From: Arthrobacter sp. V1I7
GTDB taxonomy: Bacteria; Actinomycetota; Actinomycetes; Actinomycetales; Micrococcaceae
Reading direction: 5' to 3'
Length of the DNA: 64,000 bases
NCBI RefSeq assembly: GCF_030817015.1
Contig: NZ_JAUSYS010000001.1
Coordinates: forward strand, 3,720,001 to 3,784,000
The position numbers and the translations under genes were made by a program. The notes beneath the pieces were generated by a model that saw only the letters and a program-made list of their open reading frames with translations, was not told the origin of the DNA and made no database searches. This document shows, piece by piece, positions 4,462 through 36,838 of this stretch (positions are counted from its first letter, which is position 1; the number at the start of each line of letters is the position of its first letter).

Positions 4462-5528
4462 CGGATCACTGCCGACGGCGCCGCGAAGCCGGCCGGACGG
4501 CGGGATTCCTGGCCGAGGGCCTGGGCCGCGTAGCCGTTCGCTGCGCCGAGCCTGTCCCCCGGTACGGCGCGGTCCGCCATCAGGGTGACCAGTTCATAAG
4601 CGACGTGGCTGGCGGCCACACCCGTGATGTCGGCGTGGTCGTAAGCGGGGGCGACCTCGACGACGTCGGCGCCCACCAGGTTCATGCCGCGGAAGCCACG
4701 GATGATTTCAAGCAGCTCCCGGCTGGTGATGCCGCCGGCTTCCGGCGTTCCGGTGCCCGGTGCGTGCGCCGGGTCCAGGACGTCAATGTCCACCGAGATG
4801 TAGAGGGGGCGGTTGCCGATCCGGTCCCGGACCTTGGCGACGGTCTCCAGCACGCCCTGGTAGTAGACGTCGGCAGAGGTGACGATCCCGAAGCCGAAGC
4901 GGTGGTCGTCGTCGAGGTCCTTCTTGCCGTACAGCGGCCCGCGGGTGCCGATGTGGCTGATCGCCTCGGTGTCGAGGAGGCCTTCCTCGACGGCGCGGCG
5001 GAAGGGAGTTCCGTGGGTGTATTCGGCGCCGAAGTACGTGTCCCAGGTGTCCAGGTGCGCGTCGAAGTGGAGCATCGCCACCGGTTCACCGGCGCGTTCC
5101 GCAGCGGCGCGCAGCAGCGGCAGCGCAATCGTGTGGTCGCCACCAAGGGTCAGCAGCTTGCTGCCGGAAGCCGTCAGGTCCAGCGCGTTCTGCTGGATGG
5201 TCTCGATGGCATCGTTGATGTTGAACGGGTTGACCGCCATGTCACCGGCATCGGCAACCTGGATGTTCTCGAAGGGGCTGACGTCCCACGCCGGGTTGTA
5301 CGGGCGCAGCAGGCGGCTTGCCTCACGGATGTGGTTCGACCCGAAGCGGGCGCCGGGCCGGTAGGAGACGCCGGAGTCGAAGGGAACGCCGACCACCGTG
5401 ACGTCGGCCTTGGCCACCTGGTCCAGCCGCGGCAGGCGGGCGTAGGTGGCAGCTCCGGCGTAGCGCGGGATGCGGGATGAATCGATGGGGCCAAGGTTGC
5501 CATTGGCCTCGATGCGCAGCTCTTCCAA
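4458..5528 (-). CDS. Ureohydrolase: agmatinase or guanidinobutyrase
   Basis: 356 aa of the arginase/agmatinase family, which releases urea from a guanidino group using two Mn ions. All metal-ligand motifs are visible: GGDHT, FDAHLD, and [19 protein letters not shown], plus [12 protein letters not shown]. Start is TTG at 5528, with AAGGAGAGG about 8 nt upstream. Followed by the coupled ThDP gene and preceded by a lipoprotein and an XRE-cupin regulator. Sequence alone does not separate agmatinase (SpeB) from guanidinobutyrase (GbuA). The ThDP partner and the absence of a visible arginine decarboxylase favour guanidinobutyrate or a related compound. Confidence 0.9.
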
Positions 5529-5683: not shown

Positions 5684-6469
5684 TCACTGGTATTTGACGC
5701 TGAGCAGCAGCTGTTTCAGGTCGCCGTACTGCTTCGTGGCCATCCAGGCCTTCGCTGCGTCGACCGAGGCGAAGGCAGGAGTGTCGAAGAGCACGTGCGT
5801 GTCCAGGAGCCCGTTGGCCAACGGCACGTGGGTCGATCCGGAGCTCTCCGGCGAGGGCTCGAATTCGCGGCTCTTGCGGATGCCCATGTGGAACGCCGGG
5901 TGGTCGGCGAAGGAGTCAAAGGCGAACCCGAAGTCCAGCTGCTCGCCGGACGTGTCCTTGAGCCCGGGCACCGGGGCGTTATCGAGCACGGTTCGGAGCA
6001 CCGGACCCGACGCGCCACTGCCGTAGGCATTACTCGTGATGGCGAGCAGTTCATTGCCCGTCTCGTCGGCCAGCACGGCCAGCACCGGATCGACCCCCGG
6101 GGGCTGGTTAGCCGACGGGGCGGTTTTCTCGACCCGGACGGTCCAGTTCTTGGGGTAGGAAAAGGACAGGTGGCCGTCGGGGAAAGTAAACGATGTCAGC
6201 CCGGCCGAGCCGTCCGGGCCAGGCGTCCCCGTTGACGTAGCCGCCGACGGAGTGGCCGCCGCCGACGGAGTGGCCGTCGCCGAGGGATTGGCCGTCGCCG
6301 AGGGAGAGCCCGTCGAGGGGGCCGCCGGTGACGGGGAGGACGCTGATGCGGCGGAGGACGCGTCCGACTCCTGTCCGGCCTGCCCGGTTTGCCCGGGCGC
6401 ACCGCACGAGCTGAGGCCGAGGCCCGCGGCGAGCGCCGCGGAGAGGAAGACGGTCTTGGACTGGTTCAT
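5684..6469 (-). CDS. Secreted lipoprotein of unknown function
   Basis: 261 aa. A type II signal peptide ends in lipobox LSSC (Cys at about residue 22), so the mature protein should be lipid-anchored outside the cytoplasmic membrane. Residues about 25-85 are a low-complexity Ala/Ser/Thr/Pro linker, reflecting short DNA repeats near 6240-6340. The C-terminal globular part (SFTFPDGHLSFSYPKNWTVR onward) resembles the LpqN/PsbP-like fold of actinobacterial lipoproteins, but I cannot assign a function. It lies on the same strand between the XRE-cupin gene and the ureohydrolase gene, with gaps of about 140 and 155 nt, so it may be separately transcribed. Confidence 0.8.
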   Translation of the reverse strand: MNQSKTVFLSAALAAGLGLSSCGAPGQTGQAGQESDASSAASASSPSPAAPSTGSPSATANPSATATPSAAATPSAATSTGTPGPDGSAGLTSFTFPDGHLSFSYPKNWTVRVEKTAPSANQPPGVDPVLAVLADETGNELLAITSNAYGSGASGPVLRTVLDNAPVPGLKDTSGEQLDFGFAFDSFADHPAFHMGIRKSREFEPSPESSGSTHVPLANGLLDTHVLFDTPAFASVDAAKAWMATKQYGDLKQLLLSVKYQ

Positions 6470-32385: not shown

Positions 32386-33039
32386 ATGGCCAAGACTCCC
32401 GCACAGCGAATCAAGAAGCACGGCGCCAAAGCAGTCGTGCCACAGCATGAGCTGCCGCCGGTGATCAATCCCAGCACCAGCCGGACGCCGCAGAAAGCGC
32501 AAAGCAACAGCAATTTGATCCTGATCGCCGGCGTCGTCGCCAGCCTGTTCCTGTTCTGGTACCTCCACCTGCTCACCCTGAACCAGCTCACCCAGCTCTC
32601 CGGCGGCCTGGCCATGCCGGACTCTCTGATCGGAGGCTTCGACCAGGGCTTCGTGGAGCGGCTGCGAACCGCAATGGATCAGGACGCCCGTGGGCAGCTC
32701 AACTACATTCATAAGACGGCGGGCACGCTCTTCCCCCTGATCTTCGGCTTCAGCTGGCTGCTGCTGATCGGAACGAACGTGGCGCGAAAGCCCTTGCGCT
32801 GGGCGCTCTGGGCCGTTCCGCTGCTCTTTGCCGCCGTGCGGCTGTGGGGCAATGCGGCCATTGACGCCGTGATGTCCGCCGAGACGGTCGACGCCGGCCA
32901 GGTTGCTCTCGCGTCCGGGCTCACGGTAGCCGGTTGGGTGCTGCTGGTGCTCAGCCTCCTGACCGGTGCCGCAGCGGTGTTCCTGGGCCGGAAGTCCTCC
33001 TCGCCCGCGGCCCAAACCACCGAACATGCCCAGCCCTAA
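32386..33039 (+). CDS. Membrane protein, function unknown
   Basis: 217 aa. A basic N-terminus, then four membrane helices (about residues 45-68, 110-130, 138-158 and 172-195). I recognise no domain. GATAAT lies 6 nt before the ATG, with no separate Shine-Dalgarno beyond GGAG overlapping it, so it may be leaderless. The last codons and the TAA stop lie inside the first copy of the downstream GACATGCCCAGCCCTAA repeat, so the repeat has replaced or formed the gene's 3' end. Confidence 0.75.
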   Translation: MAKTPAQRIKKHGAKAVVPQHELPPVINPSTSRTPQKAQSNSNLILIAGVVASLFLFWYLHLLTLNQLTQLSGGLAMPDSLIGGFDQGFVERLRTAMDQDARGQLNYIHKTAGTLFPLIFGFSWLLLIGTNVARKPLRWALWAVPLLFAAVRLWGNAAIDAVMSAETVDAGQVALASGLTVAGWVLLVLSLLTGAAAVFLGRKSSSPAAQTTEHAQP

Positions 33040-33167
33040 TCCCGAGCACCACAGGACATGCCAGCCCTAATCCCGACCACCACGGGACATGCCCAGCCCT
33101 CGTCGCTACCACTGGACATAGTCCCACTATGTCCATCCGTGGCGGGACCCGGAGGGCATGTCCCCCG
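33022..33167. repeat. Second GGACAT/ATGTCC repeat cluster
   Basis: Four head-to-tail units beginning GAACATG or GGACAT at 33022, 33054, 33085 and 33114 (periods 32, 31, 29). The first two share ACATGCCCAGCCCTAATCCC apart from a one-base deletion in the second. The last unit is a perfect 23-bp palindrome TGGACATAGT-CCC-ACTATGTCCA (33113-33135), followed by GGCATGTCCCCCGGAATGAG, matching the core of the island at 30929. Confidence 0.85.
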
Positions 33168-33210: not shown

Positions 33211-34233
33211 TCAGGCTTCGGTTGCGAGGAACCCCCGGGCCAGGTCGGCACGCTGCTGGGCGCCTGCCCTGTCGAAGTGCTGCGCGGCCTCCAACAGGTG
33301 TCGCTCAGCTGCAGGGGCATTCCCCAGGGCCTTGTACGCCCGCCCAAGCAGGAGGCATGATTCCCCCATCGTCTGCGGTGGGAGGACGTCATCATTGCTG
33401 CACAAACCTTCCAGCAGCTCGACCGCCGCTGCCGGGTCCCCGGCCAGATAATTCCAGTGTCCTCGGTTCAGCTTGAGCAGCAGGAGGATTTCTTCGCTTC
33501 CACCAATGACATCCGTTGCCAGTTCAGCCCGTTCGATGCAGCGGAGGGTGGCCGCGTCGGCCACATCCGCAGCGAGCCGCATGGCAGCCGAGGCGTTGTT
33601 GAATTTAGCCCACACATTCAGGTTTCGTGCGGGGGAAAACGTAGCTGCGGCCAGCTCGTGGTATTCAAGGCCGGCGTCGACTCTGCTGTTCAGGAATGCG
33701 GCGTTTCCGATGGCCCAATATGCCTTGCCCAGCAACTGATCATCGACTTCAACCGAGATGATCTGCGCGAGATGAAGGCTCTCCGCCCACGCCTCGTCAA
33801 GCCGGCCACTCTCGCCCAGTGCTGCGATCAAAGCCAAGCGGGCCGTCACATTGATTTCGATGTCGGCCTCGTCTGTCATCAGCTCGGCGCCCGCCCGCGC
33901 CTCGTCCGCAGCCCTTTCGAGAAGACCGGCCCCTTGCCACGCCTTGGACAGGAGAATGCGTACCCTCGCCTGCAGTTGCAAGCCGGTGGGGAGCGGTTCG
34001 CGGATCAGCGCTTCGGCGACCTCCGCGCATGCCTCGAACTGTCCGGCCGCCAGAAGGCTTTCGGCCCGAAAGAACGTCATATTCCACCACGAGTCGGCGT
34101 CGCCGTCATTTAGGGCAAGCTCCGCAGCGCTGCCAGCGCTGGTGGCGGCGTCGCCATAATCGTGGCTGGCCCACTGGTCGCGGGCGCGCAGTTCTGCGGC
34201 GACGTAGGAGGGCGAGACAGAGTTTTGTTGCAT
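33211..34233 (-). CDS. TPR-repeat protein, candidate peptide receptor
   Basis: 340 aa, almost entirely helical, with about seven to eight TPR-like helix pairs (examples: AESLLAAGQFEACAEVAEAL; AKAYWAIGNAAFLNSRVDAG; LLGRAYKALGNAPAAERHLL). No helix-turn-helix, signal peptide or membrane segment is visible, so it should be a cytoplasmic protein-protein or peptide-binding scaffold. Start ATG 34233 with only a weak ribosome site. Divergent from a 62-aa secreted peptide gene 208 bp away, an arrangement reminiscent of RRNPP (Rap/NprR/PlcR-type) receptors and their propeptides. Receptor function is inference. Confidence 0.75.
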   Translation of the reverse strand: MQQNSVSPSYVAAELRARDQWASHDYGDAATSAGSAAELALNDGDADSWWNMTFFRAESLLAAGQFEACAEVAEALIREPLPTGLQLQARVRILLSKAWQGAGLLERAADEARAGAELMTDEADIEINVTARLALIAALGESGRLDEAWAESLHLAQIISVEVDDQLLGKAYWAIGNAAFLNSRVDAGLEYHELAAATFSPARNLNVWAKFNNASAAMRLAADVADAATLRCIERAELATDVIGGSEEILLLLKLNRGHWNYLAGDPAAAVELLEGLCSNDDVLPPQTMGESCLLLGRAYKALGNAPAAERHLLEAAQHFDRAGAQQRADLARGFLATEA

Positions 34234-34441
34234 GATTCATTATCCGTTGCCCCGGAAGTGAAATTGAACAGAGCGCACAAGCAGTACCGGCACAGGGTTG
34301 GCGCAGGATTGGCGCAGTTCACCCGCGTTAGCGCAGGCTTCCGAATTCGCCCACTAACTCTTAACCGCTGGCGCCTTTGAGCTTCTATACTGATCTCGCA
34401 TCATGGGTCACATCAGCCACGTAAGTATCAGGAGTTATTTT
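34234..34441. promoter_or_regulatory. Divergent promoter region with TTGGCGCAG direct repeats
   Basis: Between the TPR and peptide genes. TTGGCGCAG occurs at 34298-34306 and 34309-34317 (11-bp period, one helical turn), with a variant TTAGCGCAG at 34328-34336. A good -10, TATACT (34386-34391), precedes the peptide gene; the -35 is weak (TTAACC at 34361, 19-nt spacer). Confidence 0.5.
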
Positions 34442-34630
34442 ATGAAGAAATCTCTCGCGATCCTCCTAGTCGCCGGCGCGCTGGCTGTTACAGGCGTTTC
34501 AGCCACAGCAGCCGTTTCGGCATCCGGCGGCACCGCCGACAACACTTCCGTGGCAGGTCCGGGCTGGTGGCCGGACGCCAAGCCGCAGGCAGGTCCGGGC
34601 TGGTGGCCGGACGCCAAGCCGAGCGTCTAG
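34442..34630 (+). CDS. Secreted peptide precursor with duplicated WW motif
   Basis: 62 aa. Strong Sec signal peptide (MKKSLAILLVAGALAVTGVS, with an Ala-rich cleavage region), a short Ser/Gly/Thr spacer, then two perfect copies of AGPGWWPDAKP (residues about 38-48 and 50-60) joined by Q and ending in SV. At DNA level a 33-bp unit is repeated exactly (34553-34585 and 34589-34621). GGAG lies 7 nt before the ATG and a strong intrinsic terminator follows, so this is a dedicated single-gene transcript. The layout (signal, spacer, repeated short C-terminal motif with double Trp) is that of a processed peptide pheromone or antimicrobial; function not known. Confidence 0.8.
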   Translation: MKKSLAILLVAGALAVTGVSATAAVSASGGTADNTSVAGPGWWPDAKPQAGPGWWPDAKPSV

Positions 34631-34650
34631 TCTCGGGGGCAACAAGCCTG

Positions 34651-34691
34651 GCGGTGGGTGTCGGATTCACGTCCGATACCCACCGCTTTTT
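34651..34691 (+). terminator. Intrinsic terminator of the peptide gene
   Basis: 15-bp stem (GCGGTGGGTGTCGGA and near-complement, one G-T pair) with a 6-nt loop, followed by TTTTT. The most canonical Rho-independent terminator in the window. Confidence 0.9.
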
Positions 34692-34701
34692 GTGCCTGGC
34701 G

Positions 34702-36225
34702 CTATTTCCCTTGGCCGATCATCTCGGCGAGTTTGGCGGCAGGGGCGGGTCGGCCAAAGTAGTAGCCCTGGCCGCTGGCACAGCCCAGCCGTACCAGCTC
34801 TGCGGCCTGCTCCGCCGTCTCGATGCCTTCGGCGACTGCCTTGAGGCCGCACGCATGGATAAGGTGCAGCACCGCTTCGACGACGTTCCCCTGTTGTTCG
34901 TCGGCGCCCAGCCCGTCGATCAGGCTGCGGTCGATTTTAACGACGTTGACGGGCAGTTTGCGGAGGTAGCTGATGGAGGAATAGCCGGTGCCGAAGTCGT
35001 CGATTTCCAGCTGCACGCCGAGCCGCCGCAGCCCGCTCAGGGAGTATTTGTCCACGTCTCCGCCGTTGACAGCCATCGATTCGGTCAGCTCGACAACGAG
35101 GTTCGCCGCGTCAACGCCGGTTTCACGGAGGATGTCGCGGACGTGTTCGATCAGGTCCAGGTTTTGCAGTTCGGTGGTCGAGATGTTGACCCGGACGTTG
35201 AAACTGGGGTCCAGATTCAGCTCTAGCTGCCAGTCCCGCAGCTGACGCACCGCAGTCCTGAGGACCCAGTGGCCAAGATCCACGATCATGCCGGTCTCTT
35301 CGGCCAGCGGAATGAACTGGTCCGGCATGAGCAGGCCTCGGCTTGGGTGGTTCCACCGCACGAGCGCCTCGACGCCTTCGATCCTGCCGCTCGCGAGCTC
35401 CACTACCGGCTGGTAGTGCAGGGTGAGCTGGTCCTGGCGGATTGCTTCGCGCATTTCCGTGATCATCACGCTCTGGAGCCGGCGAGCGTACAGCAGGGCG
35501 GGTTCGAACACCTTGATGCTGCCGTGTAGCTGGGCCTTGGCCGCATACATGGCGGTATCGGCTTCCATGACCAGTTCGTCGACCGACTGCCCGGGCTCGG
35601 CAACCCGCAGGCCGATGCTCGTGCCACAGGTGACCCGCAGGTCCCCGACGTCGAGGCTCTCGCTGAGGGCCCTAAGGATCCTGTTGGCCACCCGCCGCGC
35701 CCGGACGAGTGTCGATTTGGGCAGCATGACGGCGAACTCGTCGCCGCCGAGGCGGGCGACGGTATCCGTCTCGCGCACCGAGTCCTGCAGCCGCCGGGCG
35801 ATCATCCGGAGGACGTCGTCGCCCGCGCTGTGTCCCAGCGTGTCGTTGATGCCCTTGAACGAGTCCAGATCGAGGATCAGCAGCGCCGGAGGCATCTCAC
35901 CCCTCGAGGTCTCTGCAAGGGCATGGCTCAACACGGAATTGAGGGCCGTTCGGTTGGCCAGTTGCGTCAACGGGTCCGTCAGTGCCATCCGCTCAAGCTC
36001 AACCTGGGCATCACGCAGCATCGCCGTGCGGCTCTCAACGCGCTGTTCGAGCTCCTGGTAGATGGTCTGCAGGTCGTCCGCCATGAGGTTGATACCGGTA
36101 ATGACGGCAGCGACGTCGTCCCGGGCACCCGAGTGCGGGATCCTGGTGCTCAGGTCACCGCTGGCTATCCGGACTATGCCCTCTACAAGGGCATGCAGTC
36201 TGGGGTCCGGAGGATCAGTGCTCAC
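34702..36225 (-). CDS. HAMP-GGDEF-EAL cyclic-di-GMP enzyme
   Basis: 507 aa from GTG 36225. A HAMP-like N-terminus (VEGIVRIASGDLSTRIPHSG, residues about 13-65) and a coiled coil lead to a GGDEF domain with an intact ARLGGDEFAV and an inhibitory-site RxxD (RETD) five residues before it. The EAL domain has EGVEALVRW, the loop EIDDFGTGYSS and AEGIET. Both catalytic signatures are complete, so it may make and degrade c-di-GMP. No membrane helix precedes the HAMP, which is unusual. The start overlaps the upstream partner gene by 11 nt, suggesting that the partner delivers the signal. Confidence 0.92.
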   Translation of the reverse strand: MSTDPPDPRLHALVEGIVRIASGDLSTRIPHSGARDDVAAVITGINLMADDLQTIYQELEQRVESRTAMLRDAQVELERMALTDPLTQLANRTALNSVLSHALAETSRGEMPPALLILDLDSFKGINDTLGHSAGDDVLRMIARRLQDSVRETDTVARLGGDEFAVMLPKSTLVRARRVANRILRALSESLDVGDLRVTCGTSIGLRVAEPGQSVDELVMEADTAMYAAKAQLHGSIKVFEPALLYARRLQSVMITEMREAIRQDQLTLHYQPVVELASGRIEGVEALVRWNHPSRGLLMPDQFIPLAEETGMIVDLGHWVLRTAVRQLRDWQLELNLDPSFNVRVNISTTELQNLDLIEHVRDILRETGVDAANLVVELTESMAVNGGDVDKYSLSGLRRLGVQLEIDDFGTGYSSISYLRKLPVNVVKIDRSLIDGLGADEQQGNVVEAVLHLIHACGLKAVAEGIETAEQAAELVRLGCASGQGYYFGRPAPAAKLAEMIGQGK

Positions 36226-36838
36226 TAGCGTATTGCCCCAACCACTCGAGTGCTTCGGCCTCGGACGTGAAGAACTGCGCTGGAATCGTCTCGGTTTTCG
36301 AGCGCAGCAGATAGTGCGCGATGACGCGGTCCACCGGACTTTCTCCGACCAGGGCGAAGGCGGAGGCAGCAATGGATGACACGTAAACCTTCCTTGCCTC
36401 GACGCTGACTCCGACTACTCCGGTAATGACAAGCATCACCGGCACTCGCCTGCCGTTGGCAAGGGCACGGACCGCCGCCCCGGCAACCCGTGCTTCGGCA
36501 CCCGCGATTTCCTCGTTGGGGGGAAGTGTGACTAGAATCATGCCGCGCTCAAGGGCGCGCACCCCGATAGGGGCCGCCACGCCGGCGTTCCCCGCCACGA
36601 CCCCGACAAGGGCCGCCACGCCGGCCATCGCCTTGCCAATTCCCGCCGCGCCAATCATCGCCGCGCCAATCCCTGACGCGACAGGCCCCGCCGCGCCGGC
36701 CACCACGGCGCCGGCGGTGGCGTCAGGGCCGGGAGCCGGGGAAAGTGCGGGTGCGGTGGCCGCCGTCGGGCCTTCGGGGAGCCGCTCATCGGGCGCGGCG
36801 AGGGCTTCAACTGTCATCGGACTGCAGTCCCCCGGCAT
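36215..36838 (-). CDS. Partner of the GGDEF-EAL gene; low-complexity N-terminus plus SpoIIAA/STAS-like domain
   Basis: About 200-207 aa (ATG 36838 or 36817). Residues about 20-90 are a Gly/Ala/Val/Ile-rich segment (for example GAAMIGAAGIGKAMAG) encoded by degenerate GCCGCGCCAATC-like repeats. Residues about 95-207 form a small alpha/beta domain (MILVTLPPNEEIAGAEARVA, VARKVY-like VSVEARKVY, IAHYLLRSKTETIPAQFFTS, EALEWLGQY) resembling the SpoIIAA-like/DUF7793 domains of Arthrobacter. Overlaps the GGDEF-EAL start by 11 nt, so they are translationally coupled. I infer a sensory or scaffolding role in c-di-GMP signalling. Confidence 0.7.
   Translation of the reverse strand: MPGDCSPMTVEALAAPDERLPEGPTAATAPALSPAPGPDATAGAVVAGAAGPVASGIGAAMIGAAGIGKAMAGVAALVGVVAGNAGVAAPIGVRALERGMILVTLPPNEEIAGAEARVAGAAVRALANGRRVPVMLVITGVVGVSVEARKVYVSSIAASAFALVGESPVDRVIAHYLLRSKTETIPAQFFTSEAEALEWLGQYASEH

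Follow-up and report, generated by a model that had tools for sequence, protein, structure and literature searches.

A divergent gene pair for a TPR protein and a Trp-Pro repeat peptide in Arthrobacter and its relatives: a candidate peptide-signalling module

The window analyzed here is a stretch of 64,000 nucleotides from Arthrobacter sp. V1I7. It contains the two open reading frames on which an earlier sequence-only reading had centred, a 340-residue TPR gene and, divergent from it, the gene of a 62-residue precursor; both are present as that reading described them (Table 1). The precursor starts with MKKSLAILLVAGALAVTGVSATAA, which by eye and by hydropathy is a Sec-type leader, in agreement with the Sec signal proposed earlier, and its C-terminal part consists of two exact AGPGWWPDAKP repeats. 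The repetition is equally exact in the DNA, as had been claimed, but over 34 bp and not the 33 bp given. A good Shine-Dalgarno sequence (AGGAG, 7 nt ahead of the ATG) and a terminator of the gene's own had also been noted, and both are found: the stem downstream resembles an intrinsic terminator with a T run, one such site being present behind the peptide gene versus 0.4 expected in shuffles. An alternative in-frame ATG at 34403 would make a precursor of 75 residues; the start at 34442 is preferred because of the AGGAG at 34430-34434 and the MKK/MKR start common to the relatives. The HAMP-GGDEF-EAL protein encoded beyond the peptide gene holds an RxxD inhibitory site and the motifs GGDEF, EALVRW, and DDFGTG, with no membrane segment by eye. 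Its start was taken at GTG 36225, in which case it is overlapped by the end of the DUF7793 gene.

Table 1. Features of the peptide-receptor locus, in window positions
Feature	Position	Strand	Basis
HTH-less TPR protein, proposed cytoplasmic peptide receptor, 340 aa	33211-34233	-	ORF list, AlphaFold2, fold comparison
Shine-Dalgarno AGGAG, 7 nt 5' of ATG	34430-34434	+	read by eye
Peptide precursor, 62 aa: hydrophobic leader, then two AGPGWWPDAKP units	34442-34630	+	ORF list, relatives
Exact 34-bp direct repeat, copy 1	34552-34585	+	sequence comparison
Exact 34-bp direct repeat, copy 2	34588-34621	+	sequence comparison
Intrinsic-terminator-like stem-loop 3' of peptide gene	34650-34687	+	17 pairs, then TTTTTG
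HAMP-GGDEF-EAL protein, proposed receptor output	34702-36225	-	Pfam, motifs
DUF7793 (PF25056) protein, conserved neighbour	36215-36838	-	Pfam

The AlphaFold2 model of the 340-residue protein is all-helical, with 17 helices (pLDDT 94.9) arranged in a superhelix. The all-TPR description given earlier is borne out by this model, whereas no Pfam TPR model reaches its cut-off on the sequence. Neither Pfam nor our own HTH profile finds an HTH in the protein, just as the sequence-only reading had it. In a fold comparison the model lies near the Rap and NprR structures; however, LGN and other eukaryotic TPR proteins outscore Rap in the same comparison, so the bound ligand cannot be told from the fold alone. 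The predicted superhelix would be fit to hold a peptide, as in RRNPP/RRNPPA receptors. When solved structures were searched by sequence, the window protein matched PPR proteins only. The conserved core of the window receptor comprises W173-x-x-G176-N177-x-A179-F180, H192, W208-x-x-F211-N212, and A216, and conservation is centred on repeats 5-6. An origin from a mobile element was considered and rejected: no relatives were found in 50,697 phage records or in plasmid records, and none of 35 pattern matches in viral contigs was confirmed.

A scan of named genomes with the window receptor yielded 18 Arthrobacter/Paenarthrobacter loci, 43-76% identical. In 17 of them a small, divergent, leader-bearing ORF with GWWP[ND] begins 108-212 bp away from where the TPR gene starts and carries one to six units of APGWWPD, ATGWWPN, AVGWWPN, AIGWWPN, or SIGWWPN; L017, the 18th, has an intact peptide about 1.6 kb off (L017 4378-6001), with other sequence between. 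Across the family of the window, the Micrococcaceae, 88 of 197 genomes hold a receptor relative at E <= 1e-5. A first detector, looking within 700 bp of each of 111 receptor ORFs (some duplicate loci among them), found a GxWP or NWWP peptide at 82 and gave seven matches in 643 kb of more distant flank, six unlike repeat precursors and the seventh the displaced L017 peptide. A stricter detector was applied to 111 of the 144 receptors, chosen for having 700 bp or more upstream and a locus number no higher than L129, and found a divergent Trp-Pro peptide at 87 of these 111 non-identical Micrococcaceae receptors. On control long ORFs of the receptor loci the same detector fired in 21 of 311 cases, and on upstream regions shuffled in two-base blocks in 1.3%. 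Four of the control matches (L052, L056, L057, L095) are receptor peptides reached via a second start or copy, which leaves 17/307.

Receptors were also sorted by HTH state, assigned by our own sequence profile. The strict detector found a peptide, at distances of 19-254 bp, for 61 of the 63 receptors without an HTH and for 26 of the 48 with one. The two HTH-less receptors missed are that of L017, with the displaced peptide, and that of L067, whose gene has an internal stop. Seven of the 22 HTH-bearing misses (L053, L069, L076, L078, L095, L096, L097) show a peptide or a short core-bearing frame on looser inspection; the peptides matched at L091 and L093 have an unusual core. The sequence-only reading had staked its pair on the peptide not being widespread without the TPR gene. 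In 120 genomes, comparison of coordinates puts 14 of the 15 multi-copy GNWPDP arrays beside a receptor. Single GWWP[ND] codon patterns are equally frequent genome-wide in a reversed control; being too unspecific, they were replaced by clusters of two or more. The receptor-peptide pairing is conserved.

Two side observations concern the arrangement of these genes. The array lying apart from any receptor (G009:C12, near 297.5 kb; L184, minus frame from near 5995) has four IGNWPDPM units and, by eye, no hydrophobic leader; the HTH-type receptor gene of the same genome is about 120 kb away. L056 4945-7523 and L057 4909-7518 both contain two HTH-less receptor genes in tandem, every one of them divergent from a separate peptide (IDDWPH and VGNWPG in L056, IDNWPN and VGNWPD in L057).

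Among nine close relatives (L018-L023, L038-L040), 19 of 56 codon columns in the peptide ORF vary by synonymous changes only and 6 by amino acid changes, and summed over pairs there are 261 synonymous versus 61 other codon differences; this computation shows the ORF to be under selection in these relatives. The leader is less constrained, with 11 synonymous versus 10 other differences over 33 codons between the window and L007. When a protein database of 5.8 billion entries was searched with the peptide sequence, by a method that misses distant relatives, one relative turned up among seven word-sharing candidates, which suggests that few ORFs of these peptides are predicted in databases.

The constant element of the peptides is Trp-Pro, mostly after Gly-x or Asn-x, and the cores include GWWPD, GWWPN, GNWPD(PM), GDWPH, GEWPH, GIWPN, GMWPH, GGLWPY, VNNWPY, and GNNNWPL. 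Precursors carry one to eight unit copies (up to 6 in the HTH-less type), and in several the last unit is flush with the C terminus (SIGWWPN, VGNWPN, GGLWPY, GGNWPY), suggesting that these last copies mark the C terminus of the mature peptide. On the tree of 111 receptors (85 labelled rows), 13 changes are counted at the residue before WP, against at least 30 and on average 36 in 200 shuffles; the residue after WP shows 21 changes, against at least 41 in shuffles, and agreement with the tree is weak for the residue two positions ahead of WP (8 changes, versus a minimum of 10 and a mean of 12.5 when shuffled). The peptide core, as this computation shows, tracks the receptor clade. Of the 30 receptors with WWP peptides, 28 belong to a single 29-row group (support 86, not starred), those of L041 and L089 lying outside; no receptor residue was found whose changes coincide with an independent switch to WW.

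The genome of the window also encodes an XRE-TPR paralogue (L055 4017-5357; G000:C1, about 568-570 kb) with an HTH confirmed by Pfam, and its divergent precursor, from position 5363 of that locus onward, holds three [AD]IGNWPDPM units. In the sequence search of solved structures, this paralogue matched designed repeat proteins and, more weakly, PlcR and ComR through the HTH. Beyond the Micrococcaceae, a further family of the same order (f17) has strong matches to the receptor, and the L130 peptide there has three GGSWPT units. Class and phylum scans found XRE-TPR proteins in the Streptomyces-like genus g132 of family f37 and in f53, f54, and f97, and within g132 they reach E <= 1e-50 in 22 of 101 genomes. 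Divergent precursors with two or three units of DIEWP (L145, L156), DIGWP (L148, L178), or IDWP (L161, L163, L166) accompany some of the Streptomyces-like receptors; at many other such loci the peptide detector found none. XRE-TPR genes with repeated precursors of these kinds in Streptomyces-like genomes also include those of L217-L223. In three of five sampled loci (L218, L219, L221; neighbours picked by eye), NRPS-type domains lie about 1.6-5.5 kb from the receptor, comprising condensation, adenylation, thioesterase, and carrier domains, together with a P450 in L219, and the remaining two (L217, L220) have amine oxidase, MATE, and MFS transporter genes. XRE regulators are reported in Streptomyces terpene clusters in passages of a paper that do not bring up peptides (PMC12224297). 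The Streptomyces-like extension of the peptide-receptor pairs is a lead, not a result.

The neighbourhood of the HTH-less receptors is itself conserved. At WWP-type loci other than the window, a GGDEF-EAL homologue is present in 27 of 27 and DUF7793 in 26 of 27. A wider count took receptors from loci 8 kb or longer, with identical copies removed and near-identical ones kept. Of the 61 HTH-less receptors, 54 have GGDEF-EAL at a distance of 6.5 kb or less, as do none of the 45 relatives in which our profile finds an HTH (Fisher p 7e-23, a value that overstates independence because HTH state changes just twice on the receptor tree). For the same reason the link between GGDEF-EAL and HTH-less receptors represents very few independent events, and an independent-pairs test of HTH state against GGDEF-EAL had too few events for any power. 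The enzyme is on the receptor's strand in all 54 loci, downstream in 38 (within 100 bp in 12) and upstream in 16, including the window; DUF7793 and GGDEF-EAL both follow the receptor in 19. Seven HTH-less receptors are without GGDEF-EAL within 6.5 kb: two in L057, whose enzyme gene is found in the wider locus L205 at distances of about 4.7 and 6.2 kb, the interrupted one of L067, and those of L100, L102, L103, and L104, where no GGDEF-EAL match was found. The enzyme is matched at E <= 1e-125 in 58 of 194 genomes and also occurs without an HTH-less receptor, as in G039 and G177, where by eye it stands beside a response-regulator-like gene. The distribution strongly hints, at the genomic level, that the receptor-peptide module has a c-di-GMP output. 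As a separate observation, L100, L103, and L104 combine HTH-less receptors with GNNNWPL or GGNWPY peptides; Pfam places a GT2 glycosyltransferase near the receptor in L103 and L104, with look-alikes by eye in L100, and in L103 also a protein that matches CBM5_12 and, below the cut-off, GH18.

We consider it probable that the locus is a peptide-signalling module, in which an exported GWWPD peptide is re-imported, bound by the TPR protein, and acts on the GGDEF-EAL enzyme. The precursor would leave the cell through Sec and be cleaved extracellularly, between its units, into short peptides with G-W-W-P-D that an oligopeptide permease would take back; the genome has 13 SBP_bac_5 (oligopeptide-type binding) matches, whose use by a Trp-Pro peptide is predicted at most. 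Once inside, the peptide may bind in the central groove of the TPR protein, which, having no HTH, would act by protein contact in analogy to Rap. Its most likely partner would be the adjacent HAMP-GGDEF-EAL enzyme encoded on the same strand, with DUF7793, and a changed contact between TPR protein and enzyme would let peptide level set c-di-GMP, the direction of control being presumed. The interpretation offered by the sequence-only reading, Rap-like peptide signalling, is partly supported.

The pair could be a cognate peptide and receptor with another output, namely DUF7793, a transcription factor, or the XRE-TPR paralogue, the enzyme being just a conserved neighbour. This we regard as unlikely, if a serious alternative: DUF7793 is equally a conserved neighbour at the other WWP-type loci, the genome has the paralogue with an IGNWPDPM peptide of its own, and in 16 of 54 loci, the window included, the enzyme gene is on the far side of the peptide gene instead of following the receptor; the enzyme also exists without the receptor in some genomes. 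However, it is downstream on the receptor's strand in the 38 others and absent from all 45 HTH-bearing relatives within the flank examined, a pattern that speaks for the GGDEF-EAL output.

Small secreted Trp-rich peptides can be bioactive. The peptide might be a secreted effector, antimicrobial or acting at the surface, with a TPR protein that regulates it or protects from it and senses no pheromone, a reading that dispenses with the re-import we infer. It appears improbable, as the core varies with the receptor clade, paralogous receptors carry a DNA-binding domain, and the recurrent neighbours seen are GGDEF-EAL and DUF7793. That a small ORF came to lie next to a TPR gene by chance has next to no probability left and is ruled out by the counts: the strict detector does fire upstream of 17 of 307 true control genes, but a peptide accompanies 87 of 111 receptors and nearly all HTH-less ones, synonymous changes are in excess in close relatives, and the GNWPDP arrays adjoin receptors.

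The signalling module that we favour has likenesses to known systems. Rap partners are response regulators, and Rap-Phr belongs to Bacillus, in another phylum; sequence kinship of Rap to the window receptor was not detected, and the module here differs in its GGDEF-EAL neighbour, its divergent gene order, and its up to 6 Trp-Pro copies. The window receptor resembles Rap in being without the N-terminal XRE-type HTH that all other RRNPPA receptors have. Part of an RRNPPA survey describes Rap as the sole branch without HTH, a derived state (PMC9765709). PlcR-PapR, NprR-NprX, and AimR-AimP stand apart from the systems here, in which the peptide is divergent, often multi-copy, and built on an x-W-P core, and in which RNPP_C scores just 11.8 bits on the XRE-TPR paralogue (cut-off 26.5); the phage carriage of AimR/AimP likewise has no counterpart in the phage records searched with the window receptor. 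A small propeptide gene beside the receptor is shared with RRNPP/RRNPPA systems, its export being judged by hydropathy only. By sequence, the window protein falls outside them, RNPP_C being absent from its Pfam matches and NCBIfam giving nothing. The module would work like RRNPP while lying outside its sequence definition.

Passages in two papers on RRNPPA propeptides record several pheromone units per propeptide, needing extra proteolysis, identical and pseudo-repeated units in some, repeats in 6.7% of atypically large propeptides, and pseudo-repeats in Phr3T/Phr105 (PMC11343458, PMC9765709). The likeness lies in having more than one unit; here repeats reach up to eight units, are common, and are often identical. 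ComRS/XIP has a short Trp-containing peptide beside a TPR regulator, and the arrangement is similar, but WW is not constant here. The WW motif, which the earlier reading had pointed out in ComS-type pheromones, varies among the cores and, because Trp-Pro is the constant element, amounts to a superficial likeness. The NCBIfam model of the DWW pheromone (NF038244) does not list the window peptide and reaches 12.7 bits against a cut-off of 29 on the paralogue's peptide, in the leader region only.

We lean toward the view that Actinomycetota own a large pheromone class of Trp-Pro peptides, often multi-copy, with divergent TPR receptors, in which an HTH branch extends to Streptomyces-like bacteria near natural-product genes and an HTH-less branch controls a neighbouring c-di-GMP enzyme. 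Actinomycetota signals are typically enzyme-made small molecules, compared with the oligopeptides of Bacillota, according to part of a 2023 paper (PMC10075063), and RRNPPA genes are placed in several Firmicutes genera, all but one within Bacilli, in passages of a survey that was aimed at Firmicutes (PMC9765709). Among the papers listed by searches of open-licence PubMed Central literature, none dealt with these peptides or with actinobacterial systems resembling RRNPP, and GNWPD and GNWPN occur there in unrelated contexts (influenza neuraminidase, piezoelectric films). The findings point to an undescribed peptide communication system outside the bacterial group where such systems are known. 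If the proposal is true, a peptide quorum signal feeds straight into the second messenger c-di-GMP, and a conserved, sequence-defined peptide code would make communication among soil actinobacteria accessible to simple experiments with added peptide; should the Streptomyces-like branch function alike, cheap inducers for silent natural-product clusters may be possible.

In addition, the intergenic region at window positions 33016-33144 contains tandem and inverted repeats around GGACATGCC and GGACATAGT, which are perhaps REP-like elements.
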